Shown here in pieces: positions 5,937-22,815 of a stretch of DNA of 22,815 nucleotides. The stretch is from an uncultured Actinomycetes bacterium (GTDB taxonomy: Bacteria; Actinomycetota; Thermoleophilia; Solirubrobacterales; 70-9). The stretch spans positions 1 through 22,815 of the forward strand of contig CAMLHB010000019.1 in the NCBI GenBank assembly GCA_946479725.1, given 5' to 3'. The notes below the pieces were generated by a model. It saw only the letters and a program-made list of their open reading frames with translations. It was not told the origin of the DNA and made no database searches. Each line of letters begins with the position of its first letter. The stretch's first letter is position 1. The position numbers and the translations under genes were made by a program.

Positions 5937-7070
5937 ATGCCGCCACAACTCCTGCCCCGCCGCAGCCTTCGCTTCCTCGAGGCGGTCGCGACCCCGCACG
6001 GCGTCGACTCCTACCTCGAACAGCTCGATCCGCTGCTGGTCGCCGGCGAGTGCCGGGCCGAGGTGGTCGGGGTCGAGCGCGGGACCGAAGAGAGCGTGAC
6101 GTTGACGCTGCGGCCGAACCGGGCATGGCAGGGCTTCCGCGCCGGCCAGTTCGTCAACGTCGCGGTCGAGATCGACGGCGTACGGCACCAGCGCTGCTAC
6201 TCGCCCGCCTGCGTCGAGGGCCGCCGACGGGACGATTTCGGTCCTATACGGACCGTTTTCGGCCCGTCGGCGCGTAAGACGCTGGAGATCACGGTCAAGC
6301 GCCACCCCGAGGGGCTCGTCTCCAACTATCTGGTCGACCGCGCAGAGCCGGGGATGGTCGTCGGGCTCTCCGCCGGCGAAGGCGACTTCCAACTGCCGGA
6401 GCAGCGCCCCGAGTCGGTCCTGCTGATCGGCGGGGGCAGCGGCATCACGCCGCTGATGGCGATTCTCCGCACCCTCTTCGCCGAGAACTACGAGCGCCCG
6501 GTCGCCCTCCTCTACTACGCCCCCGACGCCGAGCGCTGCATCTACCGCGAGGAGCTGGAGCGCCTTGCCGCCGCCAAGCCGAACTTCCAACTGCTGCGCT
6601 CCTACACCCGCGCCCCCGGCACGGGCGAGCACGACGGGCACTTCAGCCCGACCCACCTTCCCGAGGCGGACCCCTGCTTCGCCGAGGCCGAGACCTTCGC
6701 CTGCGGCCCACCGGCTCTGCTCGACGCCGTCCGCGGCACTTGGGCCAATGGCCTCGAGCACCGGCTCCACGTCGAGAGCTTCGTCCCGCCCACCTTCGTC
6801 CCCGTCGGCGATTCCGGCGAGGGACAGGTCCGCTTCGCCGACTCCGAGGTAGAGGTCGCCAACAGCGGCGCCTCCCTGCTCGAGCAGGCGGAAGCCGCCG
6901 GTCTCAGCCCCGCCTACGGCTGCCGGATGGGCATCTGCCACACCTGCACCTGCCGCAAGCGGGCCGGCACCCACAAGAACCTCGTCACCGGAGAGGTCTC
7001 CTCTGCACCCGAAGAGGAGATCCAGCTTTGCGTCTCCGCCGCCCTCGGCGACCTCGTCGTCGAGCTCTGA
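5937..7070 (+). CDS. Ferredoxin reductase-type flavoprotein with C-terminal 2Fe-2S domain (desaturase electron donor)
   Basis: This 377-residue electron-transfer protein probably passes electrons from NAD(P)H through FAD and a 2Fe-2S cluster to the desaturase encoded 19 bp downstream. The arrangement recalls mycobacterial Rv3230c-DesA3. The FAD motif RCYSP is at 86-90, the nucleotide-binding GGGSGITPLM begins near 165, and CGPPALLDAV follows. The plant-type ferredoxin cysteines are C329, C334, C337 and C365. Residues about 96-112 (RRRDDFGPIRTVFGPSA) are encoded by a 51-bp palindromic element (6222-6272) between the FAD motif and LEITVKRHPEG. It looks like an in-frame insertion, with conserved sequence resuming on both sides. 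The frame is intact, so the protein is probably made; whether the loop is tolerated is unknown. Confidence 0.9.
   Translation: MPPQLLPRRSLRFLEAVATPHGVDSYLEQLDPLLVAGECRAEVVGVERGTEESVTLTLRPNRAWQGFRAGQFVNVAVEIDGVRHQRCYSPACVEGRRRDDFGPIRTVFGPSARKTLEITVKRHPEGLVSNYLVDRAEPGMVVGLSAGEGDFQLPEQRPESVLLIGGGSGITPLMAILRTLFAENYERPVALLYYAPDAERCIYREELERLAAAKPNFQLLRSYTRAPGTGEHDGHFSPTHLPEADPCFAEAETFACGPPALLDAVRGTWANGLEHRLHVESFVPPTFVPVGDSGEGQVRFADSEVEVANSGASLLEQAEAAGLSPAYGCRMGICHTCTCRKRAGTHKNLVTGEVSSAPEEEIQLCVSAALGDLVVEL
6222..6272 (+). repeat. Palindromic element A, copy 1 (inside ferredoxin reductase CDS)
   Basis: The outer arms are 14 bp (6222-6235 and 6259-6272) with one mismatch. A TTT/TTT internal loop follows, then inner arms CGGTCC and GGACCG around the loop TATAC (6245-6249). 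It is 51 bp, equal to 17 codons. No stop codon occurs in any of the three sense frames. Near-identical copies lie at 10649-10697 and 22281-22323. Confidence 0.85.
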
Positions 7071-7078
7071 CCTTCACG

Positions 7079-7084
7079 AAAGGA
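7079..7084 (+). promoter_or_regulatory. Shine-Dalgarno site of the second desaturase
   Basis: AAAGGA lies 5 nt before the ATG at 7090. The 19-bp gap after the reductase and the presence of an SD site fit an internal operon gene. Confidence 0.6.
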
Positions 7085-7089
7085 ACCAG

Positions 7090-8328
7090 ATGACCACCGC
7101 AGCTCCAACCGCACCTCCACCCGCGCCCACCGCCGTCGCGGGCCTCACCACCAACCCCTACGGCCTCACCGCCGAGCAGTTCGAGCAGCTCGGCGAGGAG
7201 ATGAATGTCATCCGCCAGCGCGTCCTCGCCGACCGGGGCCAGCGCGACGCCGACTACATCCGCGGAATCGTCCGCGCCCAGCGCGGGCTCGAGGTCGCCG
7301 GCCGCGGCCTGCTCTGGGCCGGCGTCGTCCCGCCCTTCTGGCTCGCCGGGACCGCTGCCCTCTCGCTCTCCAAGATCCTCGACAACATGGAGATCGGCCA
7401 CAACGTGATGCACGGCCAGTACGAGTGGATGAACGACCCGAAGCTCTCGGGCAAGCAATTCGAGTGGGACACCGTCTGCCCCGCCGACCAGTGGCGCCAC
7501 TCCCACAACTACATGCACCACACCCACACCAACATCGTCGGCAAGGACCGCGACATCGGCTACGGGGTCCTGCGCATGTCCGAGGAGCAGGAGTGGAAGC
7601 CCTACTACCTCGGCAACCCGCTCTGGGCGGCGCTGCTGGCGACCTTCTTCGAGTACGGGGTGGCGCTGCACGACCTCGAAGTCGAGCGGATCGCCGAAGG
7701 CGAGATCAGCCTGACGGACAAGCGCGAGCTGCTGAAGGGGATCGGGACCAAGGTCCGCGCCCAGGCGCTGAAGGACTACGTCTTCTTCCCCGCCCTCTCC
7801 GGCCCGCTCTTCGCCTTCCCGCTTGCCGGCAACGCGACCGCCAACATCATCCGCAACCTCTGGTCGTTCACGATCATCTTCTGCGGCCACTTCCCGCAAG
7901 GGACGCACGAGTTCGACGAGGCGGAGACCGAGAACGAGACCCGCGGCCAGTGGTACCACCGCCAGCTGCTCGGTTCGGCCAACCTCAGCGGCAGCCCGCT
8001 CTTCCACATCCTCGCCGGCAACCTCAGCTTCCAGATCGAGCATCACCTCTTCCCCGACCTGCCGGCCAACCGCTACGCCGAGATATCGGTCCAGGTGCGA
8101 GAGATCTGCGAACGCTACGGCCTCCCCTACAACGTCGGCCCGCTGCACCGGCAGTTCGGCAGCGTCGTCAAGAAGATCGGCCGCCTGGCCCTGCCGGACT
8201 CGGCGGGGACGTTCGCCCGCGGGATCGGCGGCGCCGTCGGCGGCACGCTCGGCAGGGCGGGCAGGCTGCTGCGGCCGCGCGGGATAAACCACCTCGGGCG
8301 CGCGGTTTTTTCCCGATGGCGCGGCTAG
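7090..8328 (+). CDS. Membrane fatty acid desaturase (DesA3/linoleoyl-CoA desaturase-like)
   Basis: This 412-residue member of the membrane di-iron desaturase family has histidine boxes HNVMH at 104-108, HSHNYMHH at 137-144 and QIEHH at 315-319. The QIEHH form is typical of the front-end/linoleoyl type, distinct from the HNSHH form of the desaturase at 2228-3154. Hydrophobic segments lie near 75-100 and 225-265. It follows the reductase in one operon with its own SD site and is probably its electron acceptor. The last 18 or so codons contain a hairpin followed by six T's (8275-8311), so the coding end overlaps a terminator-like structure. Substrate position specificity cannot be read from sequence. 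Confidence 0.92.
   Translation: MTTAAPTAPPPAPTAVAGLTTNPYGLTAEQFEQLGEEMNVIRQRVLADRGQRDADYIRGIVRAQRGLEVAGRGLLWAGVVPPFWLAGTAALSLSKILDNMEIGHNVMHGQYEWMNDPKLSGKQFEWDTVCPADQWRHSHNYMHHTHTNIVGKDRDIGYGVLRMSEEQEWKPYYLGNPLWAALLATFFEYGVALHDLEVERIAEGEISLTDKRELLKGIGTKVRAQALKDYVFFPALSGPLFAFPLAGNATANIIRNLWSFTIIFCGHFPQGTHEFDEAETENETRGQWYHRQLLGSANLSGSPLFHILAGNLSFQIEHHLFPDLPANRYAEISVQVREICERYGLPYNVGPLHRQFGSVVKKIGRLALPDSAGTFARGIGGAVGGTLGRAGRLLRPRGINHLGRAVFSRWRG
8275..8311 (+). terminator. Terminator-like hairpin overlapping the end of the desaturase CDS
   Basis: The 7-bp stem CCGCGCG/CGCGCGG (8275-8281 and 8299-8305) has a 17-nt loop and six T's at 8306-8311. It lies before the stop codon at 8326-8328. The long loop weakens the call. 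Confidence 0.45.
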
Positions 8329-8370
8329 TACCTCGACATAACTTGGTGACACATCAGGTCATCAACTAAC

Positions 8371-8376
8371 GGGAGG
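8371..8376 (+). promoter_or_regulatory. Shine-Dalgarno site of the phasin-like gene
   Basis: GGGAGG lies 7 nt before the ATG at 8383. The 54-bp gap also holds AT-richer sequence (TAACTT near 8338-8343) that could be a promoter giving a leadered mRNA. Confidence 0.55.
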
Positions 8377-8382
8377 CAAGAA

Positions 8383-8682
8383 ATGGCAACCGCAACCGAG
8401 CCGCAGCCAACCGGTGCCGGCACGATCGAGAAGGGCGCCGAGCTCTCCGAGCAGGTGCTGCAGCAGGTGAAGGAGAGCCAGCGCAGCGCGATCGAGGCCG
8501 TCCGCGGCTTCATGGAGTCGGTCGACGAGGCGCTGCCGGACCACGAAGGCGGCCCATCGAAACGCCAGGAGATCATCGACTCGGCCCTGCAGATGTCGCA
8601 GAAGCTGGTCAAGACCGAGTACGACTTCCTCACCAGCGTCGTCCACAGCGCCGGCGAGGCCGTGTCCGGAGGGCGGAAATAG
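8383..8682 (+). CDS. Small phasin-like helical protein
   Basis: This 99-residue protein has no signal peptide or membrane segment. After a short Ala/Thr/Pro-rich N-terminus, it is predicted by eye to be amphipathic helix: SEQVLQQVKESQRSAIEAVRGFMESVDEALP, then EIIDSALQMSQKLVKTEYDFLTSVVHSAGEAV. That layout resembles phasins, which coat polyhydroxyalkanoate or lipid granules. No PHA synthase is present in the window, so the granule role is an inference. It has a good SD site and is followed 2 bp later by an alpha/beta hydrolase, so the two are likely co-translated. Confidence 0.75.
   Translation: MATATEPQPTGAGTIEKGAELSEQVLQQVKESQRSAIEAVRGFMESVDEALPDHEGGPSKRQEIIDSALQMSQKLVKTEYDFLTSVVHSAGEAVSGGRK
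8668..8673 (+). promoter_or_regulatory. Shine-Dalgarno-like site of the alpha/beta hydrolase
   Basis: GGAGGG lies 11 nt before the ATG at 8685, inside the end of the phasin-like gene. Confidence 0.4.
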
Positions 8683-8684
8683 CG

Positions 8685-9593
8685 ATGGGCCTGTGGGAGG
8701 TCAAGTCGGAGGTGCTGCACGGCCGCTCGGTCAGCTATGCCGAGGCCGGCGAAGGTCCCGTCCTACTGCTGATCCACGGCATGGCCGGGACCTTCGAGAA
8801 CTGGCAGGAGGTGGCGGAACCGCTGGCGCGCAACCACACGGTGATCGCCCCGGACCTGCCGGGCCACGGCGCCTCGGGCCCCGGCGGCGGCGACTACTCG
8901 ATCGGCGCCTTCGCCGCCGGCCTCCGCGACCTCCTCTTCGCACTCGACCACAAACGAGCCACGGTGGTCGGCCACTCTCTGGGGGGCGGTATTGCGATGC
9001 AGTTCGCCTACCAGTTCCCGGAGATGGTCGAACGCCTGGTCCTCGTCTCCAGCGGCGGCCTCGGGCCCGAGGTGAGCCCGCTACTGCGCGCCGCGTCTCT
9101 GCCCGGCGCCGACCTCTTCATCAACGCGACCGCGACGATCGGGCAGAAGGTCGTGCCGCCGCTGGCGCGCGGCCTGGCGGCGTTGGGGCTGCGCCCGAGC
9201 GCCGACCTGGCCGAGGTGCTCCGCGGCTACGGCAGCCTCACCGACCCGGTGCGGCGCAGCGCTTTCCTCTGCACGGTCCGCGCCGTGATCGGCGCCGGTG
9301 GGCAGCGCGTCGACGCCAGCGACCGGCTTTACCTCGCCGAGGCGATGCCGGTGCTGATCGTCTGGGGCGCCGACGACCCGATCATCCCGGTCCACCACGG
9401 CGAAGAAGCGCACGAGCGCATCCCCGGCAGCCGCCTGGAGATCTTCGACGGTGTCGGCCATATGCCGCAGATCGAGACGCCGCACCGCTTCGCCGAGACG
9501 GTGTCGAGCTTCCTCGAAGAGACCGAGCCGGCGCAGTTCAGCCTCGAGGAGTGGCTGGAGATCTTCAAGCAGGCCCGCGACGCGGCGGCGTAG
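8685..9593 (+). CDS. Alpha/beta hydrolase
   Basis: This 302-residue serine hydrolase has LLIHGMAG near 28-35 as the oxyanion region, nucleophile S98 in GHSLGG, an acid in WGADDPIIP (D230/D231), and the catalytic H259 in GVGHMPQ. The length and a cap region between about 120 and 200 fit the family of lipases, esterases and haloalkane dehalogenase-like enzymes. The substrate is unknown. Its pairing with a phasin-like protein and lipid genes makes an ester or lipid substrate (even a PHA-related one) reasonable, but the sequence does not prove it. It is convergent with cydB across 39 bp. Confidence 0.88.
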   Translation: MGLWEVKSEVLHGRSVSYAEAGEGPVLLLIHGMAGTFENWQEVAEPLARNHTVIAPDLPGHGASGPGGGDYSIGAFAAGLRDLLFALDHKRATVVGHSLGGGIAMQFAYQFPEMVERLVLVSSGGLGPEVSPLLRAASLPGADLFINATATIGQKVVPPLARGLAALGLRPSADLAEVLRGYGSLTDPVRRSAFLCTVRAVIGAGGQRVDASDRLYLAEAMPVLIVWGADDPIIPVHHGEEAHERIPGSRLEIFDGVGHMPQIETPHRFAETVSSFLEETEPAQFSLEEWLEIFKQARDAAA

Positions 9594-9632
9594 CGCCAAG
9601 ACGCTGCGGCGGCCCCAGTACCGGCTGGCAGC

Positions 9633-10637
9633 TCAATGCTCACTCTCCAGCAGGTCCCGCTGGCTGAGCGTGTAGAGAAGCCCGAGCGAGGGCAGGACGA
9701 GGACCGCGGCGGCGGCGAAGACGATGAAGATGATCGTCATCGTCGGGTCGGGGGCGGCGGCCTGGTCGATGCGAAGGCTGGTCGGCAGCAGGTAAGGGAA
9801 CTGGGCGACGCCCCAGCCCCAGATCACCGCGACGACGGCGCCGGCGGCGAGCGGACGCAGGGGCCGGCGGCCGCCGCGGCGCAGGACGGCGAGCAGGGCG
9901 ATGCCGCAGAGCAGCGAGAGGACGACCAGGGGCAGGCCCTCGGCGGTGAGGCGGTCGAAGACGTAGCGGGCTTCGGAGTGCAGGGCGAAGAGACCGGCGA
10001 CCGCGAAAGCCCCGGCGACGACGGCCGCGCCCAGCGCCCGCCGTTCGAACCAGCCCTCCATCTCCGCGTCGTCGGCGCGGCGGGCGTCGCCGACGAGGAA
10101 GACCGCAGCGAGGTAGGCGCCGGTGGCGACGAACATCGCCCCGATCAGCAGCGGCAGCGGCGCCAGCCAGCTGGAGAAGGCGTCGCCGTTGCCGGCGGCG
10201 GGGACGTTGCCGGCGGCGATCGCCCCGACCACGGTGCCCATGAAGAAGGGGGTGAGGACGGAGGAGATCGCAAACGTCGCGCCCATCGCCCGCCGCTCGC
10301 GCAGCCTCACGATCGACTTGCGGAAGGCGAAGCCGGCGCCGCGGAGGACGATCCCCAGGGCCGCCAGGGCGATCGGCACGTAGAGGGTCGTGAAGATCGC
10401 GCTGAAAGCGATCGGGAAGGCGGTCCAGAGGACGACGAGGACGAAGATCAACCAGACGTGGTTGGCCTCCCAGACCGGCGTCAGCGAGCGCTGGATCACG
10501 TCGCGCGGCCGCTGCCCGCGCTCGTCCCAGCCGGCAACCAGGTCCCAGAAGCCGCCGCCGAAGTCGGCGCCGCCGAAGAGCGCGTAGAAGGTCGCCCCGA
10601 CCCAGAGGATCGCCGCCGCGGCATCGGCCTTGCTCAC
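9633..10637 (-). CDS. cydB: Cytochrome bd ubiquinol oxidase subunit II
   Basis: This 334-residue polytopic membrane protein is the second core subunit of the bd-type quinol oxidase, which reduces oxygen to water without pumping protons. It has the family N-terminus AILWVGATFYALFGGADFGGGFWDL, then PVWEANHVWLIF and several further helices, with a short cytoplasmic C-terminus. The start is GTG at 10635-10637, overlapping the cydA stop in a GTGA arrangement, so it is translationally coupled to cydA. The longer frame upstream is antisense or out of frame with cydA and is not coding. No cydC/cydD assembly transporter genes follow in the window. Confidence 0.95.
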   Translation of the reverse strand: MSKADAAAAILWVGATFYALFGGADFGGGFWDLVAGWDERGQRPRDVIQRSLTPVWEANHVWLIFVLVVLWTAFPIAFSAIFTTLYVPIALAALGIVLRGAGFAFRKSIVRLRERRAMGATFAISSVLTPFFMGTVVGAIAAGNVPAAGNGDAFSSWLAPLPLLIGAMFVATGAYLAAVFLVGDARRADDAEMEGWFERRALGAAVVAGAFAVAGLFALHSEARYVFDRLTAEGLPLVVLSLLCGIALLAVLRRGGRRPLRPLAAGAVVAVIWGWGVAQFPYLLPTSLRIDQAAAPDPTMTIIFIVFAAAAVLVLPSLGLLYTLSQRDLLESEH

Positions 10638-12070
10638 GACCCACCCCCGCCGACGGGACGATTTCGGTCCGTATAGGACCGTTTTCGTCCCGTCGGCAAT
10701 GGTGGTGCGTACGGAGTGTCTCCTTCGAGGTCGGCGCCGGCCTCGCGCCAGCGGCGGGACATCGAGCGCAGGACGAGGATCGCGCCGGTGCCGAGGCCGG
10801 CGTAGAGGAGCAGCACCAGGGCGAAGCTGAACCAGATCCCCTGCGCCTCGGTCACCGCTTCGGAGGTGCGCATGTAGCCCTGGACGATCCAGGGCTGGCG
10901 CCCGACCTCGGTGACGATCCAGCCGCACCACAGCGCCAGCACCGCCCCCGCCCCGGAGATCGCGACCGCGCGCAGGAACCAGGGCGTCCGCGGCAGCTCC
11001 CGCCGCCGCCACCAGACGAAGGCGAACCAGGCGCAGAGGCCGAGCAGCGCGCTGCCGATCCCGACCATCGTGTCGAAGGCGAGGTGGAGCATCGTGTGGG
11101 CCGGCGGCTCTTCGTCGTCGGGGATGCTGTTCAGGCCGGTGACTTCGGTGCCGGTGCTGAAGCCGACCAGGAAGGAGTCGAGGCCGGGGATCCCGATCGC
11201 CCCCTTGACCCCGTTCTCGGTGCAGACGCCGCCGAGGTACTCGGTCTGGTCGGGGCCGGTCTTTTCGATGCACTCCATCGCCGCGAACTTGGCCGGCTGG
11301 TGGTCGGCGACTTCGCGCGCGGCGGTGTCACCGACGAAGAGCTGGATCGGGGTTGCGATCGCGGCGATCGTCAGCGGGATCACCAGGCCCAGCCGGTGCA
11401 GCCTGTCGCGCCGTCCCTTCAGCATCCCGACCGCGTAGACCGAGGCGACGAGGAAGCCGACCACCATGTAGGCGGCGAGGATCATGTGCATGACCTCGTA
11501 GCCGGTCGCCGGGTTGAAGAGGACCTTCAGCGGCTCGACGTCGGTCACCCTGCCGGCGGCGTCGAGGGTGAAGCCCTGCGGCTGGTTCATCCAGGCGTTG
11601 GCGGCGACGACCGAGAAGGCGCCGCCGATCCCGGTCACGACCATCGGCACCCCCGACCAGAAATGCGCCCAGGGGCTGAGCCGTTTCCAGCCGTAGATGT
11701 AGATCGCGAGGAAGATCGCCTCGACGAAGAAGAAGATCCCCTCGATCGCGAAGGCGACGCCGAAGGCCGCTCCGAAGCGGTCCATGAACTCGGGCCAGAG
11801 CAGGCCGAACTCGAAGGAGAGGACGGTGCCGGTGACGGCACCGACGGCGAAGGTGACCGCCATCGCCTTCGACCAGCGCCGGGCCAGCTCCAGCGCCCGC
11901 TCGTCGCCCTTCTTCAGGCCGTAGTAGTTGGCGACCAGCATCGTCGCCGGCAGCGCCACCCCGATGCAGGAGAGGACGATGTGGAAGCCGAGGGTGAAGG
12001 CCATCTGCTCGCGGGCGGCAAGCAGGTTCGACTCCGACGCTGCGAGCGGCAGCAGGTCGAGCGGCGGCAT
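10634..12070 (-). CDS. cydA: Cytochrome bd ubiquinol oxidase subunit I
   Basis: This 478-residue haem-binding subunit holds the quinol and oxygen sites of cytochrome bd. H30 in GFHIVLS is the N-terminal haem ligand, acidic residues lie in the EGIFFFVEAIF helix, a further histidine lies in GYEVMHMILA, and GRQPW is conserved near the C-terminus. The length and quinol loop suggest the short Q-loop type. The C-terminal tail (about the last 19 residues, PTGRKRSYTDRNRPVGGGGS) is encoded by palindromic element A copy 2, so the natural end was probably near YAPP. A TAGCCT box lies 6 nt before the ATG and overlaps the pgi stop. The gene follows pgi by 9 bp and overlaps cydB by 4 bp. Confidence 0.95.
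   Translation of the reverse strand: MPPLDLLPLAASESNLLAAREQMAFTLGFHIVLSCIGVALPATMLVANYYGLKKGDERALELARRWSKAMAVTFAVGAVTGTVLSFEFGLLWPEFMDRFGAAFGVAFAIEGIFFFVEAIFLAIYIYGWKRLSPWAHFWSGVPMVVTGIGGAFSVVAANAWMNQPQGFTLDAAGRVTDVEPLKVLFNPATGYEVMHMILAAYMVVGFLVASVYAVGMLKGRRDRLHRLGLVIPLTIAAIATPIQLFVGDTAAREVADHQPAKFAAMECIEKTGPDQTEYLGGVCTENGVKGAIGIPGLDSFLVGFSTGTEVTGLNSIPDDEEPPAHTMLHLAFDTMVGIGSALLGLCAWFAFVWWRRRELPRTPWFLRAVAISGAGAVLALWCGWIVTEVGRQPWIVQGYMRTSEAVTEAQGIWFSFALVLLLYAGLGTGAILVLRSMSRRWREAGADLEGDTPYAPPLPTGRKRSYTDRNRPVGGGGS
10649..10697 (-). repeat. Palindromic element A, copy 2 (forms the C-terminal tail of CydA)
   Basis: Perfect 13-bp outer arms (10649-10661, 10685-10697) are followed by a TTT/TTT internal loop and inner arms CGGTCC and GGACCG. 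The loop is GTATA on the plus strand, that is TATAC on the cydA sense strand. All three sense frames are open. It ends 12 bp before the cydA stop. Confidence 0.85.
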
Positions 12071-12076
12071 GCGAGA

Positions 12077-12082
12077 AGGCTA
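12077..12082 (-). promoter_or_regulatory. -10-like box TAGCCT before cydA
   Basis: TAGCCT on the minus strand is 6 nt from the cydA ATG. Its TAG is also the pgi stop codon. No SD site is present, so cydA may have its own leaderless transcript in addition to read-through. Confidence 0.3.
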
Positions 12083-13714
12083 GCGCCGCTGCGAGCGGTA
12101 GCGGCGGATCAGCGCGTTGGTCGAGCTGTCGTGCTTCAGCACCGGTTCGGCGTCCGACTCGAGCTCGGGGATGATCGCCTTGGCGAGGACCTTGCCCAAC
12201 TCCACCCCCCACTGGTCGAAGGAGTCGATTCCCCAGATCGCCCCCTGGGTGAAGACACTGTGCTCGTAGAGGGCGACGAGGCTGCCGAGCGTCGCCGGCG
12301 TCAGCCGCTCGGCGAGGATCGTGTTCGAGGGCCGGTTCCCCTCCATCACCCGGTGCGGGACGATCGCCTCCGGCGTCCCCTCCGCCCGCACCTCCTCGGG
12401 CGTTTTGCCGAAGGCGAGCGCTTCGCCCTGGGCGAAGACGTTCGACATGAGGATGTCGTGATGGTTGCCGAGCGGGTTGAGCGAGCTGGCGAAGCCGATG
12501 AAGTCGCAGGGGATGACCCGCGTCCCCTGGTGGATCAGCTGGTAGAAGCTGTGCTGGCCGTTGGTCCCCGGCTCCCCCCAGTAGACCTGGCCGGTCTCGT
12601 AGTCGACGTGGCAGCCGTCCAGGGTGACGTGCTTGCCGTTCGACTCCATCGTCAGCTGCTGCAGGTAGGCCGGGAAGCGGTGCAGGTACTGGTCGTAGGG
12701 CAGCACCGCCTGGGTTTCGAGGCCGAAGAAGTCGGCGTACCAAACCGCGAGCAGGCCCATGATCACCGGCAGGTTGGCTGCGATCGGCGCTTCGCGGAAG
12801 TGCTCGTCCATCGCGTGGAAGCCGGCCAGCATCTCCTCGAAGCGCGCCGGCCCGATCGCCAGCATCGTCGAGAGCCCGATCGCCGAATCCATCGAGTAGC
12901 GGCCCCCGACCCACTCCCAGAAACCGAACATGTTCCCGGTGTCGATCCCGAACCTCGAGACCTCCTCGGCGTTGGTCGAGACGGCGACGAAGTGCTTGGC
13001 GACGGCGTCCTCATCGCCGCCGAGACCGGCCAGCGACCACTCCCGCGCCGTATGCGCGTTGGTCATCGTCTCCAGGGTCGTGAAGGTCTTCGAGGAGATC
13101 ACGAAGAGGGTCTCCTCGGGGTCGAGGTCGCGGGTCTTCTCGGCGAAGTCGGTGCCGTCGACGTTGGAGACGAAGCGGAAAGCGATCTCTCGCTGCGAAT
13201 AGTGCTTGAGCGCCTCGTAGGCCATCACCGGGCCGAGGTCGGAGCCGCCGATGCCGATGTTGACGACGGCGCGGATGTTCTTCCCGGTGTGGCCGCGCCA
13301 CTGGCCCGAGCGCACCCGCTCGCAGAAGGCGGCCATCCGGTCGAGCGTCTCGTGGACCTGCTTGACGACGTCGACCCCGTCGACGACGAGCGAGCGCTCG
13401 CGCGGCATCCGCAGGGCGACGTGGAGGACGGCGCGGTCCTCGGAGACGTTGATGTGCTCGCCGGCGAACATCGCCTCGCGGCGGTCGAAGACGCCCCGCT
13501 GCTGCGCCAGCCCGCCGAGCAGCATCAGGGTCTCGTCGGTGATCCGGTTCTTCGAGAAGTCGAGGTAGAGGCCGGCCCCCTCGGCGACCAGCCGCTCGCC
13601 CCGCTTGGAATCGGCGGCGAAGAGATCGCGCAGGTGCTTGCCGCGGATCTGCTCGTAGTGCTTCTGGAGCTCGCCCCAGGCCGGCGCCTGGCGCAGCGCC
13701 GAGGGCTCGGTCAC
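12080..13714 (-). CDS. pgi: Glucose-6-phosphate isomerase
   Basis: This 544-residue cytoplasmic enzyme interconverts glucose-6-phosphate and fructose-6-phosphate. Visible signatures are [60 protein letters not shown] with the catalytic Glu/His region, and [12 protein letters not shown] with the catalytic lysine near the C-terminus. Length is close to that of the E. coli enzyme. The start is GTG at 13712-13714, overlapping the tal stop (GTGA), so it is coupled to transaldolase. Natural Tal-Pgi fusions are known in other bacteria; here the two remain separate but abut. Confidence 0.96.
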
Positions 13715-14814
13715 CCGGCCTTGACCCCGCTCTTGGAGCTGATCGTCTCCAGCATCTCTTCCCAGGACTTGTTGAAGCTTCCTTTGCCCTCCTCCTGGAG
13801 GCGGGCGGCGAGGGCGGCGACGTCGATCCCGGCCTCGGCGAACTCGGCCAGCACCTGCTCGGCGTTACCCCCGTCCTTGGGGAAGAGGTCGGCGACCTGG
13901 CCGTGGTCGGCGAATGCGTGCAGGGTCGGCTCCGGCATCGTGTTGACCGTCAGCGGCGAGGCGAAAGCCTCGATATAGAGGGTGTCGGAGGCGTCGGGGT
14001 CCTTGGTCCCGGTGCTGGCCCAGAGCAGTCGCTGCGGACGCGCGCCCTCGTTCATCAGCCGCCGCATCCGGTCGGATTCGAGCAGCTCGTTGTAAGCGCG
14101 GTAGGCGCGGCCGCCGATCGCGATCCCGAGCCGGTTGACCAGCTGCTCGGGCACGTCCTTGCCGACGGCAACGTCCCAGCGGCTCATGAAGATCGAGGCG
14201 ACCGAGGGCACATGGGGGTCGAGTCCGGCCTCGATCCGCCGCTCGATCCCGCGCATGTAGGCGTCGGCGGCGCCGAGGTACTGCTTGTCGTCGAAGAGCA
14301 GGGTGACGTTGATCGGGATACCGGCGAAGATCGACTCCTCGATCGCCTCGCGGCCGGCCTCGGTGCCGGGGATCTTGATGTAGAGGTTGTCGCGCTCGCC
14401 CTTGGCATGGAGCGCCTTCGCCTCCTCGATCGTCGCCGCGGCGTCGTCGGCGATCAGCGGCGAGACCTCGAGCGAGCAGAAACCATCGACCCCGGCGGTG
14501 CGGCGGGGGACGTCGGCGAAGAGGTCGCAGGCGTCGCGCAGGTCGGCCAGCGCCAGCTCGAAGAAGATCTTCTCGTTCTCGTTGGCGCCGACGCCCTCGC
14601 CGGCGGCCGCCTGCGGCGCCACCTCGGCGATCTGCTCGTCGTAGGCCTCGCCACCCGAAATCGCCTTGTCGAAGATCGTCGGGTTGGAGGTGAGGCCGGT
14701 GACCGAGAGGTCGCGGATGTAGCCCTCCAGCACCCCGTCGCGCAGCATCGGCCGGGTGATGTTGTCGAGCCAGAGGCTCTGGCCCAGTTCGTGCAGGCGC
14801 TGCGTCGGCTTCAT
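13711..14814 (-). CDS. tal: Transaldolase
   Basis: This 367-residue enzyme of the non-oxidative pentose phosphate pathway transfers a dihydroxyacetone unit between sugar phosphates. The Schiff-base lysine is K147 in [17 protein letters not shown] near 41-48, CSLEVSP near 113-119 and INVTLLF complete the barrel signatures. The ATG at 14812-14814 is chosen because an AGGAGG site lies 6 nt upstream; the longer frame is antisense or out of frame with tkt. The gene follows tkt by 10 bp and overlaps pgi by 4 bp. Confidence 0.96.
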
Positions 14815-14820
14815 CTGGAG

Positions 14821-14824
14821 CCTC

Positions 14825-14826
<2 letters not shown>
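14821..14826 (-). promoter_or_regulatory. Shine-Dalgarno site of tal
   Basis: AGGAGG on the minus strand lies 6 nt before the tal ATG and overlaps the tkt stop codon. Confidence 0.75.
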
Positions 14827-16882
<2,056 letters not shown>

Positions 16883-16890
16883 GAGGGCCG

Positions 16891-16896
16891 ATCCTA
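16891..16896 (-). promoter_or_regulatory. -10-like box TAGGAT for tkt and the operon
   Basis: TAGGAT on the minus strand is 8 nt from the tkt ATG, with no SD site. The -35 region is weak. Confidence 0.4.
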
Positions 16897-16964
16897 GCCG
16901 CAACTGGCGGTCACAAGACATCGGGATGGCGCCCACCCCTGTTCTCTATCCTCTTCTAGACCAT

Positions 16965-17017
16965 AATCGATGTTTAAAGATCGGTATAAGTACAATATCG
17001 ATGGTAAAGTATCGATA
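16965..17017 (+). promoter_or_regulatory. Two HipB-type operator palindromes over the hipBA promoter
   Basis: Site 2 (16996-17017) is TATCGAT-N8-ATCGATA, a perfect 7-bp inverted repeat that ends on the A of the start codon. Site 1 (16965-16986) is AATCGAT-N8-ATCGGTA, the same layout with mismatches, 31 bp upstream (about three turns). The N8 spacing matches that known for E. coli HipB operators. TACAAT (16991-16996) or TAAAGT (17005-17010, 6 nt before ATG) could be the -10. The region is far more AT-rich than its surroundings. Confidence 0.65.
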
Positions 17018-17346
17018 TGAAGAGGAGCCACAATTATTCGCCGCGGACGCTGGAGGCAGCTGAGCTGCTCGGCGCTCGCATTCGATTGGCCAGGCGGGAA
17101 CGGCGCTGGACCCTGGAGGAGCTCGCGGAGCGGGTGGGAATCGGGGTGGTGACGATGCGGAAGATCGAGCAAGGCGACCCAAGCGTCGGCCTCGGCTTCG
17201 CCTTCGAGGCCGCGAGCCTGACGGGTGTCGCCCTCTTCCACGAAGAGCCCTCGCGCCTCTCCCTGGAAGCCGCCCGCGTAGACGACCGTCTCGCTGTCCT
17301 CCCGCGCCTGGTGCGCAAGCCCACCCGGATCGACAATGACTTCTGA
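17017..17346 (+). CDS. HipB-like antitoxin, XRE-family DNA-binding protein
   Basis: This 109-residue protein has a helix-turn-helix of the XRE/Cro type at about residues 18-60: LLGARIRLARRERRWTLEELAERVGIGVVTMRKIEQG. HipB proteins neutralise the HipA kinase and repress their own operon. The start overlaps the second operator, which fits autoregulation. The end overlaps the hipA-like gene by 11 bp, so the two are coupled. A GAGGAG stretch just after the ATG looks like an SD site but no in-frame start follows it closely. The tail is basic and not recognised. Confidence 0.85.
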   Translation: MKRSHNYSPRTLEAAELLGARIRLARRERRWTLEELAERVGIGVVTMRKIEQGDPSVGLGFAFEAASLTGVALFHEEPSRLSLEAARVDDRLAVLPRLVRKPTRIDNDF

Positions 17347-18580
17347 GCCACAGCAAGTCTTCGTGTGGATCTGGCTGCCTGAAGCCACCGAGCCGGTTGT
17401 CGCCGGCCGTCTCGACTCAATTGGGACGAGGGTCGACTTCACCTACGGGCGAACTTACCTGGAACGGAGAGACGCAATCCCCCTGTTCCTGCCGGAGCTT
17501 CCGCTCAGGCCAGAGCCCATTCCACCACCCGTGGGGGAGATGGCGGGCTGCATCGCCGATGCCGGACCAGACGCCTGGGGGCAGCGGGTCATCCTCAACC
17601 GTCTGACCGGTCGGGCAGATGCAGACCCAGCGGAGCTGGGACCGCTCACCTATTTGATCGATTCGGGCTCGGACAGAATCGGCGCCCTCGACTTCCAGAC
17701 CTCCCCGAGCGAGTACGTCCCCCGGGGAATGAAGCACGTCTCGATCGAGGAGCTGGCGGAGTCCGCAGAACGCGTCGAGAAGGAAATTCCGCTCTCGCCC
17801 GAATTGGACCATGCCCTCCTACACGGCAGCTCCATCGGCGGGGCGCGCCCGAAGGCGCTCCTCGACGACGAAGAGGCGAAGCTGATCGCGAAGTTCAGCT
17901 CGACCACCGACACCTATCCCGTAGTTAAAGGTGAGTTCGTCGCGATGGAGCTGGCGCGGCGAGCGGGGCTCGAGGTGGCGCCGGTGCGACTGACCACCGC
18001 TCATGGGCGGGACACCCTTCTGGTCGAGCGCTTCGATCGGCCTGGTGACGGTAAGCGCCGCATGCTGATCTCGGCATTGACGATGCTGGGCCTGGACGAG
18101 GCGGGCGCACGTTACGGCAGCTACGCGGACTTAGCCGACCTGATCCGGGGCCGCTTCACCGATCCCAAGGCCACCCTCCGGGAGCTCTTCTCCAGGATCG
18201 TCTTCAACATCCTGTGCAGCAATACGGATGACCACCCCCGTAATCACGCCGCCTTCTGGGATGGGGAGGCGCTGACCCTCACTCCCGCATATGACCTCTG
18301 CCCTCAGCCGCGCAGCGGTGGCGAGGCGGCTCAGCTGATGGCGATCGGCAGGGACGGCTGGCGGATGAGCCAGGTTGCCGGGTGCATCGCCCGGGCCGGG
18401 ATCTACCTACTGACGAACGCAGAAGCGAAGGAAATTGTCGACCGCCAGCTCGAGACGATCGAAGGGCAATGGGACGAGGTCTGCGATCTGGCTCGACTGG
18501 GCGAAGCCGGCCGAGCGTTCCTCCGAGGGCGTCAGTTCCTCAATCCGTACGCGCTGGAGGGCTACGACCGCAAGGGCTGA
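17336..18580 (+). CDS. HipA-like serine/threonine kinase toxin
   Basis: This 414-residue HipA-family kinase belongs to a type II toxin-antitoxin pair. In E. coli, HipA inactivates glutamyl-tRNA synthetase; the target here is unknown. It has an N-terminal subdomain (about 1-110), the SSIGGARPK loop at 165-173 where the family carries its autophosphorylated serine and ATP loop, LIAKFSS with K186, the catalytic NTDDHPRN at 296-303, and the metal-binding D320 in PAYDLCP. All key residues are present, so it should be active. The ATG lies inside the hipB-like gene. It ends abutting the convergent kinase gene with no spacer. GC and codon use look a little lower than neighbours, which could mean lateral transfer. 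Confidence 0.9.
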   Translation: MTSEPQQVFVWIWLPEATEPVVAGRLDSIGTRVDFTYGRTYLERRDAIPLFLPELPLRPEPIPPPVGEMAGCIADAGPDAWGQRVILNRLTGRADADPAELGPLTYLIDSGSDRIGALDFQTSPSEYVPRGMKHVSIEELAESAERVEKEIPLSPELDHALLHGSSIGGARPKALLDDEEAKLIAKFSSTTDTYPVVKGEFVAMELARRAGLEVAPVRLTTAHGRDTLLVERFDRPGDGKRRMLISALTMLGLDEAGARYGSYADLADLIRGRFTDPKATLRELFSRIVFNILCSNTDDHPRNHAAFWDGEALTLTPAYDLCPQPRSGGEAAQLMAIGRDGWRMSQVAGCIARAGIYLLTNAEAKEIVDRQLETIEGQWDEVCDLARLGEAGRAFLRGRQFLNPYALEGYDRKG

Positions 18581-20389
18581 CTAGGGCTCGATGCGGCTGA
18601 CCGTGCCGTCCCCGTTATTTGCGACCCAAACCGCGTCGCCGCCGACCGCGACGGCGCCCGGTTCGCGGCCGACCTGGATCGGGGCGCCGTCGACCCTGCC
18701 GGTGTCGAGGTCGATCTTGCGGACCGAGTCGTCGGAGCGGTCGGCGACCCAGACGGCGCTGGTGCCGCCATCGATTCCGCCCGGGTGGCCGCCGACCTCG
18801 ATCTGTTCGACGACCCGCAGCGTCAGGGGGTCGATCTTGGAGACGACGCCGGCGCGGCTGCTTGCCACCCAGACGAAGCCACCGGCGACGGTGATCCCGG
18901 CGGGACCGCCGCCGACCCGGATCGGCTCGCCGGCGGCAAGCGTGGTCGGGGCGAGGCGGCGGACGACGTTGGCGCCCGAGATCGCCACCCAGAGGGCTTC
19001 GGTCCCCCAGGCGAGCCGCAGCCCAGGCGCCTGCGGCGGCAGGCCGCGGCCGCCGGGAGCGACCGCGCCGGCTTCGGCGTTGACCGCGGTGAGTCCCCTG
19101 CCGCCCTCTTCGGCGACCCAGACCCGTTGGCCGCCGAGCGCGAGCGGCCCCGGCTCGCCGGCGAGCGGAATCCGTTTCAGGACCTTGCCGCTGAAGGGGT
19201 CGAGGCGCAGCAGCTGCCCCCGCTTCGGGTTCGTCGCCCAGGTCCATTTACTGCCGACAGCGACGCCGGCGACGCCCTCCCCCACTTTGTGCGGGCTGCC
19301 GACCACTTCCCCGGTTTCCGGGTCGAGCCGGGTCACGGTCCCGTCCTTTTCGCTCGTCACCCAGACCGCCTTCGGCCCCGCGTCGAGGCGCAGCGGCGGC
19401 GTCCCGATCGCGACCGGCGCTGAGACCCGCGGCCCGTCGCCGCCGAGCAGAAGGAAGAGGGCGGCGGCGGCCATCGCCAGGACGAAGACGAGGACTCCGG
19501 CGGCGATCCAGGCGGTCGCCCGGCCGCCGATCCGGCCGAAGAAGCCCTGCGAACGGTTGGGGACGGTGCTGCGCTCGCTGCGGTCCTCGGAGAGGACGGC
19601 GGTCGGCCGCACCTCCGAGCCCTCGGCGGCACGGGCGGCGGCGATCAGGACGCCGGCGGTCGCGTAGCGCTCGCCCGGCTCTTTGGCGACCGCGCGCCGG
19701 ATTACCGCCTCCACCCCGTGCGGCATCTGCGGCGGCGTCTCGGCTTCCTCGCGCTGGAAGGGCGGGATCCCGGTCAGCGCCTCGTAGAGGACGCAGCCGA
19801 GCGAGTAGACGTCGGCGGCGGGGCCGATCGAGTCGCCGCGCCACTGCTCCGGTGACATGTACTGGGCGGTGCCGACGACGGAGGTGCCGGAGGCGGCGCC
19901 GCTCTCGTCGACGGCTTTGGCGAGGCCGAAGTCCGAGAGATAGGCGCGGTCGCCTTCGATGAGGATGTTGTGCGGCTTGACATCGCGGTGGACGATCCCG
20001 GCGGCGTGGGCGGCGTCGAGCGCGTCGGCGATCTGGGCCAGGTAGTTGAGGGCCCGGTGCGGCGGCAGCGGTCCCTCGCGGTCGATCAGCCGCCGCAGGT
20101 CGCCCCCCTTGACCAGCCGCATCGCCACGATCAGTTCGCCGTCGACCTCGCGCGAGTCGTAGACCGGCACCACCGAGGGATGCTCGAGCCGGGCGGCGAG
20201 GCGGGACTCGCGCAGGAAGCGCTCGCGGAAGCCGGGGCGGTCGACCAGCTCGCGGGCGATCACCTTCAGGGCGACCGGTCGATCGAGCCCGAGGTGGGTG
20301 GCGCGGTAGACGACGCCCATCCCGCCGCGGGCGATCTGCTCCTCGATCCGGTAGCCGGCGACTTCAGCGCCTACGAAAAAGTCCCCCAC
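18581..20389 (-). CDS. Transmembrane Ser/Thr protein kinase with extracytoplasmic beta-propeller
   Basis: This 602-residue Hanks-type kinase has the glycine loop ARGGMGVVY at 20-28, ATP lysine K42, catalytic HRDVKPHN at 134-141, DFGLA at 153-157 and GTAQYMSPEQ in the activation region. A linker is followed by one membrane helix at about 292-316. The outer part (about 320-602) contains repeated VWV.....G.V.RIDP-type units typical of YVTN/NHL-like beta-propellers, in place of the PASTA repeats of PknB. The start GTG (20387-20389) lies within the terminator stem of the upstream gene, and TATAAC in the hairpin loop is 6 nt upstream. The next genes upstream encode a secreted TolB-like protein and an FHA protein, suggesting a signalling group. 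Confidence 0.93.
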   Translation of the reverse strand: MGDFFVGAEVAGYRIEEQIARGGMGVVYRATHLGLDRPVALKVIARELVDRPGFRERFLRESRLAARLEHPSVVPVYDSREVDGELIVAMRLVKGGDLRRLIDREGPLPPHRALNYLAQIADALDAAHAAGIVHRDVKPHNILIEGDRAYLSDFGLAKAVDESGAASGTSVVGTAQYMSPEQWRGDSIGPAADVYSLGCVLYEALTGIPPFQREEAETPPQMPHGVEAVIRRAVAKEPGERYATAGVLIAAARAAEGSEVRPTAVLSEDRSERSTVPNRSQGFFGRIGGRATAWIAAGVLVFVLAMAAAALFLLLGGDGPRVSAPVAIGTPPLRLDAGPKAVWVTSEKDGTVTRLDPETGEVVGSPHKVGEGVAGVAVGSKWTWATNPKRGQLLRLDPFSGKVLKRIPLAGEPGPLALGGQRVWVAEEGGRGLTAVNAEAGAVAPGGRGLPPQAPGLRLAWGTEALWVAISGANVVRRLAPTTLAAGEPIRVGGGPAGITVAGGFVWVASSRAGVVSKIDPLTLRVVEQIEVGGHPGGIDGGTSAVWVADRSDDSVRKIDLDTGRVDGAPIQVGREPGAVAVGGDAVWVANNGDGTVSRIEP

Positions 20390-20415
20390 CCGGCCGTTAT
20401 AGCCGGATGGGGGAC
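20376..20415 (-). terminator. Strong intrinsic terminator after the TolB-like gene, also a TATAA-loop palindrome
   Basis: Read on the minus strand, 14-bp arms (20402-20415 and 20381-20394, one mismatch) with a 7-nt loop TATAACG are followed at once by five T's (20376-20380). It lies 36 nt after the TolB-like stop. The 3' arm contains the GTG start of the kinase gene. Confidence 0.85.
20396..20401 (-). promoter_or_regulatory. -10-like box TATAAC for the kinase gene, in the terminator loop
   Basis: TATAAC is 6 nt from the kinase GTG and occupies the loop of the upstream terminator hairpin. No -35 is recognised. Confidence 0.4.
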
Positions 20416-20451
20416 GGGAACGCCGACTGGCCCTGCGCCGCAGGCGCGCTT

Positions 20452-21501
20452 TTACCGGTGCTGCGGGACCGGCTGCCAGTCGATCACCGGGCCGAGGATC
20501 GTGCCTTCGCCTTCGTCGAAGTTGTAGCCCGAGGCGAGCTGACTGTCGCGGCGGGTTTCGACGTTGATCGAGACCAGCTGCTGTTCGTCTTCGGCCTGGA
20601 CGAAGGCGGCGACCCGCTTGCCGTCGGAGGAGAAGACGGAACTCGTCTGCGACTGGTCCGGCAGGGTGCTGAGCTTGCGGGCTTTGGCCGGGCCGATCTT
20701 CTTCACCCAGAGGCCCTGGGCGCGGCGGAAGATCAGCAGCTTGCCGTTCGGCGAGACGTCTTCGACGTAAGCGGAGCCGACCCCGCGCACCTGCGGCCGG
20801 GCCTTGGTGCCGTTGCTGCGCATCGTGTAGATGTCGGCGTAGGCGGCCGGGCCTTCGCTGCTCTCGCCGCGGCTGTAGATGACGCCGCCGGCGAAGAAGC
20901 GCGGTGCGAACTCGTCGACGCCCTCGGTCTTGGTCAGCCGCGCCAGGCCCGAGCCGTTGGGGTGGATCGAGTAGACGTCGTCGTTGCCGCCTTCGGCCCC
21001 GGGCGTCGAGCGGACGAAGACGATCGACTTCCCATCGGGCGAGAAGGCCGCGTCATGGTTGTCGCCGCTCGAGGTCAGCGCCCGCAGGCCGCCGCCGGTG
21101 GCGCCAACGGTGTAGAGGCTCGCCGGGCCGCCGAGGGCGCCGCGCCGCTCGAAGACGACGTAGCGACCGCTGGGGGCGATCTTCGGCAGCGAGTCGACTT
21201 CCGGGCCGCTGGTCAACTGCCGCTGGCCGGAGCCGTCGGGCCGGACCGAGTAGATGTCGCCGCCGCGGGCGAAGGCGATCGTCCGCCCGTCCGGGGAGAA
21301 GTTCGGTTCGGTGTCGGTCGGGTCTTCGGTCAGCTGGTTCAGCCGCCCTTCCTTCACCGCGAAGAGACCGCCTTTGGCGACGCCTTCGACGGTCGAGACT
21401 TTCGAGAAGACGACCGCGCCCGTGTTGGACGCCGCCGAGGCCGCTGCGGGCAGTACGAGGGCCAGCAGCGCGGTGAGTGCGATCAGGGTCTTCTTGAACA
21501 T
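20452..21501 (-). CDS. Secreted TolB-like beta-propeller protein
   Basis: This 349-residue protein starts MFKKTLIALTALLALVLPAAASAAS, a classic Sec signal peptide with cleavage likely after ASA. The rest is a run of about five or six PD40/WD40-like TolB repeats (EPNFSPDGRTIAFARGGDIYSV, HDAAFSPDGKSIVFVRS, VEDVSPNGKLLIFRRA, SSVFSSDGKRVAAFV). It should act outside the membrane. The ATG at 21499-21501 is preferred over an upstream in-frame ATG at 21540 because AAGGAG lies 7 nt before it and the signal peptide then starts correctly. It is not the Tol-Pal TolB itself; no tolA or pal is present. The ligand or partner is unknown; the adjacent receptor kinase, which also has a propeller, is a candidate. 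Confidence 0.88.
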   Translation of the reverse strand: MFKKTLIALTALLALVLPAAASAASNTGAVVFSKVSTVEGVAKGGLFAVKEGRLNQLTEDPTDTEPNFSPDGRTIAFARGGDIYSVRPDGSGQRQLTSGPEVDSLPKIAPSGRYVVFERRGALGGPASLYTVGATGGGLRALTSSGDNHDAAFSPDGKSIVFVRSTPGAEGGNDDVYSIHPNGSGLARLTKTEGVDEFAPRFFAGGVIYSRGESSEGPAAYADIYTMRSNGTKARPQVRGVGSAYVEDVSPNGKLLIFRRAQGLWVKKIGPAKARKLSTLPDQSQTSSVFSSDGKRVAAFVQAEDEQQLVSINVETRRDSQLASGYNFDEGEGTILGPVIDWQPVPQHR

Positions 21502-21508
21502 CGGATTG

Positions 21509-21551
21509 CTCCTTTCCGAGCAGTGAGTGAGTCGATACACCCATGCTCGGA
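21509..21551 (-). promoter_or_regulatory. SD site and abutting inverted repeat in the TolB-like gene leader
   Basis: AAGGAG (21509-21514) lies 7 nt before the ATG. Directly next to it are 8-bp arms TCCGAGCA and TGCTCGGA (21515-21522 and 21544-21551) around a loop holding a repeated TGAG/CTCA stretch. A leader hairpin or operator is possible. Confidence 0.5.
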
Positions 21552-21585
21552 TTTGGAGCCGTGCCGGCCAATGACAGCCGCGCCA

Positions 21586-21613
21586 CCCACCGGGCCATGC
21601 CTGGCCCGGTGGG
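21586..21613. repeat. Perfect 12-bp hairpin with TGCC loop
   Basis: CCCACCGGGCCA and TGGCCCGGTGGG flank a 4-nt loop. It lies in the 171-bp gap between the FHA gene end and the TolB-like gene start. No T run follows on either strand, so it is not a classic terminator. Confidence 0.7.
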
Positions 21614-21624
21614 GGTCACTTCGC

Positions 21625-21669
21625 CGAGTCCGCGAAAACCGTCGTTATACGACGCCTTTCGCGGACTCG
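21625..21669 (-). repeat. Nested palindrome with TATAA loop after the FHA gene
   Basis: Perfect 13-bp outer arms CGAGTCCGCGAAA and TTTCGCGGACTCG enclose a 2x2 mismatch and inner arms CGTCG and CGACG. The loop is TATAA on the minus strand. It begins 3 bp after the FHA stop. The outer arm/mismatch/inner arm/TATA loop layout matches element A although the arms differ. Confidence 0.8.
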
Positions 21670-21672
21670 CGT

Positions 21673-22260
21673 TCAGCGCGGCCGATCGAGCCCCAGCTCG
21701 ATGACCCGCGCCGCAATCTGGCGGGGGCGGTCGCGACCGGCGTCGCCGGGGACGTCGAGCTTGGCGGCGAGGGCGTCGAGGCGGCGCTGGGCGGTGCGCT
21801 CGGAGACGTGCAACTCGGCGGCGATCTCGGCGCGGGCGGCGGGGCGGCCGGCGAAGGCGCCCTCGCTGCGGTAGGGGGCGACGAGGGCGGCGGCGGTCGC
21901 TCGCTCCTCCTCGTTGAGAGCGACGGAGGGCTCGCCGGCGGCGACGGTGGCGCCGACCGGGGTCACCGACCCCGTCTTCACTTCCAGCCGGTGACCGCCG
22001 ACGATCAGGGTGTCGCCGTCGCGCAACCGGCGCGGCTTGTCCAGCGGCTCGCCGTTCAGCGCCGTGCCGTTGCGGCTGTCGAGGTCGGTCGCCATCAGCA
22101 CGTCGCCGCGGAGCTCGATCTCCAGGTGGTTCCAGGAGACCGCCTCGTCGTCGAGCACCACGTCGGCCTCGGGCGAACGCCCGACCACGGTCCGCTCCCC
22201 CGTCAGCGCAACGGAGTGCGGCGCCTCACCGCCGGAGGAGATCCAGAGTCGCGGGTCCAT
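21673..22260 (-). CDS. FHA-domain protein with C-terminal HTH-like region
   Basis: This 195-residue cytoplasmic protein has a forkhead-associated domain at about residues 20-95. The phosphothreonine-binding pattern is visible as VVGRSPEADVVLDD, the serine/histidine region SWNHLEIEL, and DLDSRNGTALNG. A linker is followed by a helix-turn-helix-like stretch, ARAEIAAELHVSERTAQRRLDALAAKL, at about 143-170. FHA domains bind proteins phosphorylated on threonine, so it may read out the Ser/Thr kinase two genes downstream; this is inference. TAATCT lies 7 nt before the ATG with no SD site. Palindromic element A copy 3 lies just upstream. Confidence 0.88.
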   Translation of the reverse strand: MDPRLWISSGGEAPHSVALTGERTVVGRSPEADVVLDDEAVSWNHLEIELRGDVLMATDLDSRNGTALNGEPLDKPRRLRDGDTLIVGGHRLEVKTGSVTPVGATVAAGEPSVALNEEERATAAALVAPYRSEGAFAGRPAARAEIAAELHVSERTAQRRLDALAAKLDVPGDAGRDRPRQIAARVIELGLDRPR

Positions 22261-22267
22261 TCCGCCG

Positions 22268-22273
22268 AGATTA
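22268..22273 (-). promoter_or_regulatory. -10-like box TAATCT for the FHA gene
   Basis: TAATCT on the minus strand is 7 nt from the ATG, with no SD site. Its upstream side borders palindromic element A copy 3. Confidence 0.4.
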
Positions 22274-22280
22274 GATCGGT

Positions 22281-22323
22281 GACGGGACGATTCCGGTCCG
22301 TATAGGACCGTTTTCGGCCCGTC
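22281..22323 (-). repeat. Palindromic element A, copy 3 (intergenic)
   Basis: The 8-bp outer arms GACGGGAC and GGCCCGTC (one mismatch) and inner arms CGGTCC and GGACCG surround the loop GTATA on plus (TATAC on minus). It lies 5 bp after the adenosylhomocysteinase stop and 20 bp before the FHA start. Confidence 0.85.
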
Positions 22324-22328
22324 GGCGG

Positions 22329-22815
<487 letters not shown>

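Follow-up and report, generated by a model that had tools for sequence, protein, structure and literature searches.

A palindromic element of 49 bp occurs three times in a 22,815-nucleotide stretch of DNA from an uncultured bacterium of the Solirubrobacterales (contig CAMLHB010000019.1 of assembly GCA_946479725.1, positions 1 to 22,815; the whole stretch is referred to as the window), where two copies contribute to the coding sequence of protein genes and the other lies between genes. This raises the question of what kind of element can be found in such different settings, and how it comes to be there. We have analyzed the window together with related genomes, and the results make it probable that the three palindromes are members of a family of non-autonomous 49-bp repeats specific to the lineage, of the kind of the repetitive extragenic palindromes (REPs) and the Rickettsia palindromic elements (RPEs), a reading that includes spread in trans and rewriting of the cores of existing copies. 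The family is multicopy in relatives, has a near-constant length, displays paired changes in its arms and lies mostly behind stop codons or in frame within genes.

A nested palindrome in three copies

The three copies form a 51-nt repeat group, with identities of 100, 88 and 82% to the reference copy. Each 49-bp unit is composed of a 13-nt outer arm, a 3-nt spacer, a 6-nt inner arm and a 5-nt loop, the latter reading TATAC in copy 1 and GTATA in copies 2 and 3. The outer arm has an internal mismatch in copies 1 and 3, and the outermost pairs of copy 3 are partly broken. The RNA folds predicted for copies 1, 2 and 3 have energies of −38.5, −42.3 and −32.7 kcal/mol, corresponding to z scores of −6.1, −7.9 and −4.4 relative to shuffled sequences. 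When up to 3 mismatches are allowed, a pattern of the 29-nt core is found at exactly three places in the window and at none in 100 shuffles, and a chance origin of the palindromes was rejected on this basis. The sequence-only reading from which this work departs had described three nested palindromes at 6222-6272, 10649-10697 and 22281-22323; repeat grouping, pattern and folds all confirm them, and these positions agree with the 49-bp units within 3 bases. A known Rfam RNA was also ruled out, the two matches obtained being weak, to unrelated viral families, and below the gathering score.

A repeat family in related genomes

A sample of 232 genomes of the order, which includes loci titled Solirubrobacterales, Solirubrobacteraceae and Conexibacter, was searched with a covariance model built from the three copies of the window (E up to 0.1, at most 24 candidates scored per genome). 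Matches were obtained in 31 of the 232 genomes; outside the main clade, several genomes have one or two weak matches and one (G197) has nine. A strict pattern yields 1 to 99 copies in 13 related genomes, the richest being G040 (99), G035 (82), G044 (63), G038 (46), G046 (43), G042 (40) and G041 (33), followed by G049 (9), G051 (3), G050 and G037 (2 each) and G039 and G043 (1 each). Single matches were noted in G017, G133, G152 and G182, and the backward control of the pattern matches in 1 of the 232 genomes. Two genomes, G033 and G045, have covariance-model matches and zero strict-pattern matches. Over a sample of the phylum, the strict pattern is present in 10 of 396 genomes (two matches in G050, one in each of nine others), the control being found in 6. 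The proposal that an actinobacterial lineage harbours a family of palindromic repeats, some copies of which are coding and in frame, thus stands, and single relatives have as many as 99 strict copies.

After removal of redundancy, 129 matches from 61 sources correspond to 66 distinct copies (window plus ten genomes), all of which align without gaps to the 56 positions of the model, and therefore the unit length is taken as 49 bp. The outer arms vary by genome, being of the GCCGACGGGCCGA type in G038 and of the GTTGATGGGCCGAAAA type in G035, G041, G042 and G044, and these differences consist of matching changes on both arms. Indeed, paired changes are observed at 13 of 19 pairs, with a score of 0.306 versus 0.121 for shuffled data. 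Two other patterns were less productive: an exact pattern specific to the loop of copies 2 and 3 gave 0 matches in the genome contigs scanned, and an outer-arm pattern was found in 2 of the 232 genomes of the order and in 3 stretches of viral contigs. The idea that the element is under general selection for open reading frames was rejected, as an excess over shuffles is seen in G038 only.

Host genes in the window

Table 1. Copies of the 49-bp palindrome in the window and the genes associated with them.
Feature	Position	Strand	Description
Copy 1	6223..6271	+	In-frame insert in the reductase gene; encodes RRRDDFGPIRTVFGPSA together with flanking bases
Copy 2	10649..10697		Outer arms fully paired; encodes most of the CydA C-terminal tail (minus strand)
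Copy 3	22278..22326		Intergenic; follows the stop codon of the minus-strand gene at 22329 by 2 bp
Reductase gene (377 aa), host of copy 1	5937..7070	+	Homologues named ferredoxin-NADP reductase or stearoyl-CoA 9-desaturase NADPH oxidoreductase
cydA (478 aa), host of copy 2	10634..12070	-	Cytochrome bd ubiquinol oxidase subunit I
Gene before copy 3, 3' part	22329..22815	-	C-terminus PDHYRY, from sequence and gene call

The claim that copy 1 adds about 17 residues to the reductase is supported by the distribution of this segment: 12 of the best 120 of 5524 homologues have it and 108 lack it. The 12 carriers are 83–90% identical to the window reductase and bear the segment at one common position; its ends, RRD and PSA, are conserved and its middle part varies. 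The nearest relatives by reductase among the genomes searched, G050 (72% identity) and G038 (71%), are without it, and none of the tblastn rows read for the reductase carries it except the window itself. The reductase matches listed from genome contigs are mostly from Mycobacteriaceae, and the search of viral contigs gave 22 stretches, none of which is a relative. An AlphaFold model of the reductase had a mean pLDDT of 39 and was not used. In the case of CydA, the notion that copy 2 supplies the C-terminal tail holds for most of the tail rather than for its entirety, and the tail motif is matched in 9 of the best 120 of 7997 homologues, a tenth (P0125) being similar by eye. Among the 12 reductase carriers and the tblastn rows, compared as proteins, no instance was seen of the reductase segment encoded by unrelated DNA in unrelated genera. 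Copy 3 proved intergenic, as had been described; the gene that precedes it is presumably that of adenosylhomocysteinase.

Placement of the copies relative to genes

The placement of 86 copies was determined using a home-made gene finder. A second set of matches at 27 distinct places contributed 19 of these copies, two others (L253:4996 and L253:5563) being repeats of locus L201 and six weak places being dropped (L239:13565, L241:5230, L245:13790, L251:3780, L252:8397 and L255:6825); the first of the six, left out of the 86, corresponds to the shared site S2 described below, and L250:7866 came in from a separate search. The majority of the copies, 59, are intergenic (28 between co-directional, 26 between convergent and 5 between divergent genes), 25 are within predicted genes (20 internal, 3 C-terminal and 2 N-terminal) and 2 are at the edge of a sampled stretch. 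A gene 3' end is located within −6 to +20 bp for 39 of the 59 intergenic copies, and in 10 cases the gene end overlaps the element, an arm of which can supply TGA. The preference for convergent over divergent settings is significant (p 0.0002), as is the proximity of co-directional copies to the 3' end of the upstream gene (23 of 28, p 0.0009).

Within genes, the 49-bp element is read in several reading frames of unrelated proteins. The hosts of internal or linker copies identified using Pfam, core enzymes among them, include, in G038, PheT, an anthranilate synthase fusion, PriA, a UvrD-type helicase, BioD, a YfiH-type protein and FolC, and, in G042, biotin carboxylase; four further host proteins gave no Pfam match. 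Comparison with solved homologues reveals a clean gap at the element-encoded segment of PheT (against 2rhs) and a partial gap in BioD, and for FolC the alignments stop before the segment. The PheT site was followed over 15 genomes, in which one common site is intact in G038, decayed in G037 and undetected by the model in G050; the segment is absent in 10 of the 15, and G035 and G033 give split matches. This stretch of PheT is length-variable, as the relatives lacking the insertion differ by about 11 residues, not 17.

Shared sites and a possible turnover of the core

We have compared the syntenic DNA of G040 with that of G035, G041, G042, G043, G044 and G046, and observed that some sites are common to species at about 85–88% DNA identity, and that part of the copies have decayed or collapsed. 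Five genomes (G040, G035, G044, G041 and G046) have an element at site S1, which lies within a gene of 780 aa; none is seen in G043, and G042 yielded no sequence there. At S2 the element can still be recognised in G040, G041 and G044, and has decayed in G046 and G035. Only G040 and G035 carry a copy at S3, the other five rows being without one. S4 holds a copy in G040, G041, G035 and G046, and none is seen there in G042, G043 and G044. A further site of G040 lacks the element in G046; its G041 counterpart consists of GTTGATGG fused to CCCATCAAC, as would result from loss of the hairpin centre. Comparison of the empty G046 site with G040 discloses no clear target duplication, the left flank being diverged.

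The outer arms persist at the four aligned shared sites and at one look-alike pair (S5), while the 17-nt cores can differ. Averaged over S1-S5, a core matches those of its own genome at 10.75 of 17 positions, its orthologues at 6.82 and the copies of other genomes at 7.41; the similarity within the own genome exceeds that to the orthologue in 13 of 16 same-site copies, and that to other genomes' copies in 11 of 16. Overall core identity amounts to 12.4/17 within genomes versus 8.3/17 between them, these pairs being non-independent. The case of G035 and G041 is illustrative: the two are grouped with a support of 1.000 in an unrooted tree of the region, yet their cores differ at S1, S4 and S5. 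At S1 the right flanks of the two are near-identical; their cores agree at 2 of 17 positions, that of G035 being matched in full by cores at other places in its genome.

These results suggest that cores may be rewritten in place. As a tentative proposal, which we hold to be possible rather than likely, the cores of the dispersed palindromes would be copied between loci within a genome, with the outer arms stationary and the coding inserts rewritten in a genome-specific manner. Such copying would amount to concerted evolution of repeats whose length seems insufficient for ordinary homologous conversion; no paper was found in a literature search on REPs with gene conversion and concerted evolution. 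Several observations weigh against core copying. The core signal comes out strongly in G040, G035 and G044, but most copies of G041 and G046 do not show it, and just 5–13 copies per genome enter the comparison. Three of the 16 same-site copies are closer to their orthologues (G046 at S1 and S4, G041 at S2), and in five the similarity within the own genome does not surpass that to other genomes (four of G041 or G046 lower, one of G046 tied). Moreover, S5 is a pair in look-alike genes of loci L196 and L204 (from G041/G035) that is not DNA-aligned. We have thus given modest weight to the proposal, because three genomes supply most of the signal and the comparison by aligned DNA covers four sites.

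Search for a mover

The suggestion of a RAYT-like mover (REP-associated tyrosine transposase) was not supported: the domain Y1_Tnp (PF01797; RAYT/IS200) is found in 0 of the 13 strict-pattern genomes versus 29 of the 232 of the order, with the reserve that draft genomes may miss genes, and RAYT was rejected as the likely mover on this basis; another transposase may have this role. The domain is present in G065, G077 and G193, which have only 1–2 weak model matches each. Transposase_20, of the insertion sequence type IS110, occurs in 4 of 10 bearing genomes tested and is absent from the two richest, G040 and G035, so that IS110 was rejected as a common mover. In the sampled DNA, as distinct from whole genomes, 18 of 261 matches to the 13-nt arm have no partner at 49 bp; these reduce to 15 distinct ones, 7 resembling 50-bp copies and 8 being lone.

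Weighing the explanations

We favour a family of non-autonomous repeats, for which the following sequence of events may be envisaged. Copies would spread by means of an enzyme acting in trans on the conserved outer arms, RAYT being unlikely in this role, and insertions would persist where they are nearly harmless, such as gene ends, variable loops and tails. Cores at old sites could then be rewritten from copies of the same genome, either by re-insertion or by short-homology template switching or conversion. A number of points count against this reading. No movement was seen, no target duplication was defined and no mover was found in the searches for Y1_Tnp and Transposase_20. The constant length of 49 bp is a consequence of alignment to the model, and 50-bp and shorter variants exist; likewise, the pairs were counted on an alignment fitted to the model and using both strands of each palindrome, and for the reductase peptides alone the covariation is not significant (p about 0.10). 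The gene finder first missed the reductase, which was entered by hand together with a shortened upstream gene, and the internal copy of locus L174 may sit upstream of the true start. Finally, the YfiH-type protein has no gap relative to its solved homologue, the segment aligning with other residues.

That the element is a miniature inverted-repeat transposable element or a REP whose transposase (formerly RAYT or of another insertion sequence family) has been lost, or lies outside the assembled parts, is an unlikely alternative, although many genomes with the element are assembled in numerous contigs, REP families are distributed alike in genomes (PMC3733652), and both the Transposase_20 genes of some bearing genomes and the eight lone arms would fit it. 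Against it stand the lack of Y1_Tnp in the 13 strict-pattern genomes of an order in which 29 of 232 have this domain, and that of Transposase_20 in the two richest genomes. We regard as rather improbable that the palindromes are mainly functional bidirectional terminators or stabilisers of mRNA 3' ends, with the gene-end copies selected and the coding copies accidental. The positions at 3' ends, the excess of convergent settings, the bias towards upstream 3' ends and the strong folds are all in line with such a role; however, there is no T-run, the T fraction being 0.08–0.33 in the first 8 outward flank positions of the 66 copies, and 25 of the 86 copies are inside predicted coding sequence. 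In addition, a gene-end bias is also expected from the purging of harmful insertions, and is known for REPs (PMC3733652). It is extremely improbable that the protein segments are ordinary variable loops or tails in which palindromes arise by chance or codon bias: the length-variable stretch of PheT and the ungapped YfiH-type alignment would suit this, and it is contradicted by the intergenic copies, as well as by the shuffles without matches and by the same 49 bp in several frames of unrelated proteins.

The repeat family that we favour adds to those known a tag-less palindrome, apparently without RAYT, from a little-studied actinobacterial lineage, and bears on how palindromic elements spread and enter genes without breaking them. 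The swapped cores at shared sites make it testable whether there is insertion only or also rewriting in place.

Other repeats and neighbouring features

Many other palindrome families, of about 46–52 bp, are present in loci L237-L256 (from G040, G044, G035 and G046). Strong palindromes number 67 in 349 kb of these loci (the present family included, the regions having been chosen for it). By comparison, one shuffle gave 0, and loci of Mycobacteriaceae (358 kb) and other loci of the order (99 kb) gave 2 and 0, respectively. At L246:9092-9207 a repeat of ~116 bp lies behind a gene, inside longer inverted arms; it has dozens of listed matches in six genomes, including G043, and the same spot bears other insert types in other genomes. 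Dispersed repeats of ~100–150 bp, with >30 listed rows in G044, are found at L239:2060-2700 and L238:13640-13810, where they adjoin palindromes of other families.

The window itself has a separate nested hairpin at 21622-21671. Its arms are GAGTCCGCGAAA, the loop region contains TATA and the z score is −7.4; the gene at 21673 has its stop no more than 5 bp away. The open reading frame at 81-2231 contains a perfect palindrome, TTTGTCCCCGGATACCGGGGACAAA, at 527-551, and a GC-rich proline-coding stretch at ~1150-1260, the latter near the position where the look-alike proteins of L196 and L204 bear the 49-bp element. At 17017-18580, a small open reading frame that we take to be helix-turn-helix-like is followed by a larger one, presumably of the HipA-type kinase kind.

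Comparison with known palindromic repeats

In its behaviour the 49-bp element resembles a REP or an RPE, without GTAG or CGTC tags. The sequence-only reading had named Rickettsia and Wolbachia for coding palindromes; these are not confined to the two genera, since PMC3733652 describes intragenic REPs in several other bacteria, including UvrD/REP helicase, tRNA synthetase and repair genes, and in-frame palindromes outside Rickettsia were therefore already known. PMC10969869 describes RPEs of about 150 bp in frame in many unrelated genes. The likeness to these is in the 20 internal copies, in frame in unrelated protein genes; the present element differs in its 49-bp length, its other arms, its high-GC actinobacterial hosts and its mostly intergenic location (59 of 86), the two being compared here by description.

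With GTAG REPs and their RAYT the family shares the dispersed distribution, the positions behind 3' ends and between convergent genes, the occasional intragenic copy and ends that can supply a stop, features which PMC3733652 reports, together with sequence types that expand strain-specifically. In contrast, it has no Y1_Tnp in the 13 genomes and its arms are longer (REP stems are 5–13 bp), and an unpaired GTAG tag is absent from the 66 copies examined with 12-bp flanks, where the arm ends are of the GCCGAC, GTTGAT or GTCGAC type and the flanks are variable. CGTC REPs, with which the same source equates RPE-4 and RPE-6, are similar in having intragenic copies, no dedicated transposase and a short loop (4–5 nt in REPs); here, however, there is no conserved unpaired CGTC, the matching bases being paired and reading CATC in several genomes, and the stem has 19–22 bp versus 8–9 bp. 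The same source notes different REPs at about the same recB site in two Xanthomonas species, and the difference at a same site therefore has a precedent. For such elements in this actinobacterial lineage, a literature search found no relevant paper. The present family stands apart in its 49-bp architecture without tags, in its lineage, in the apparent absence of RAYT and in the turnover of cores at shared sites.

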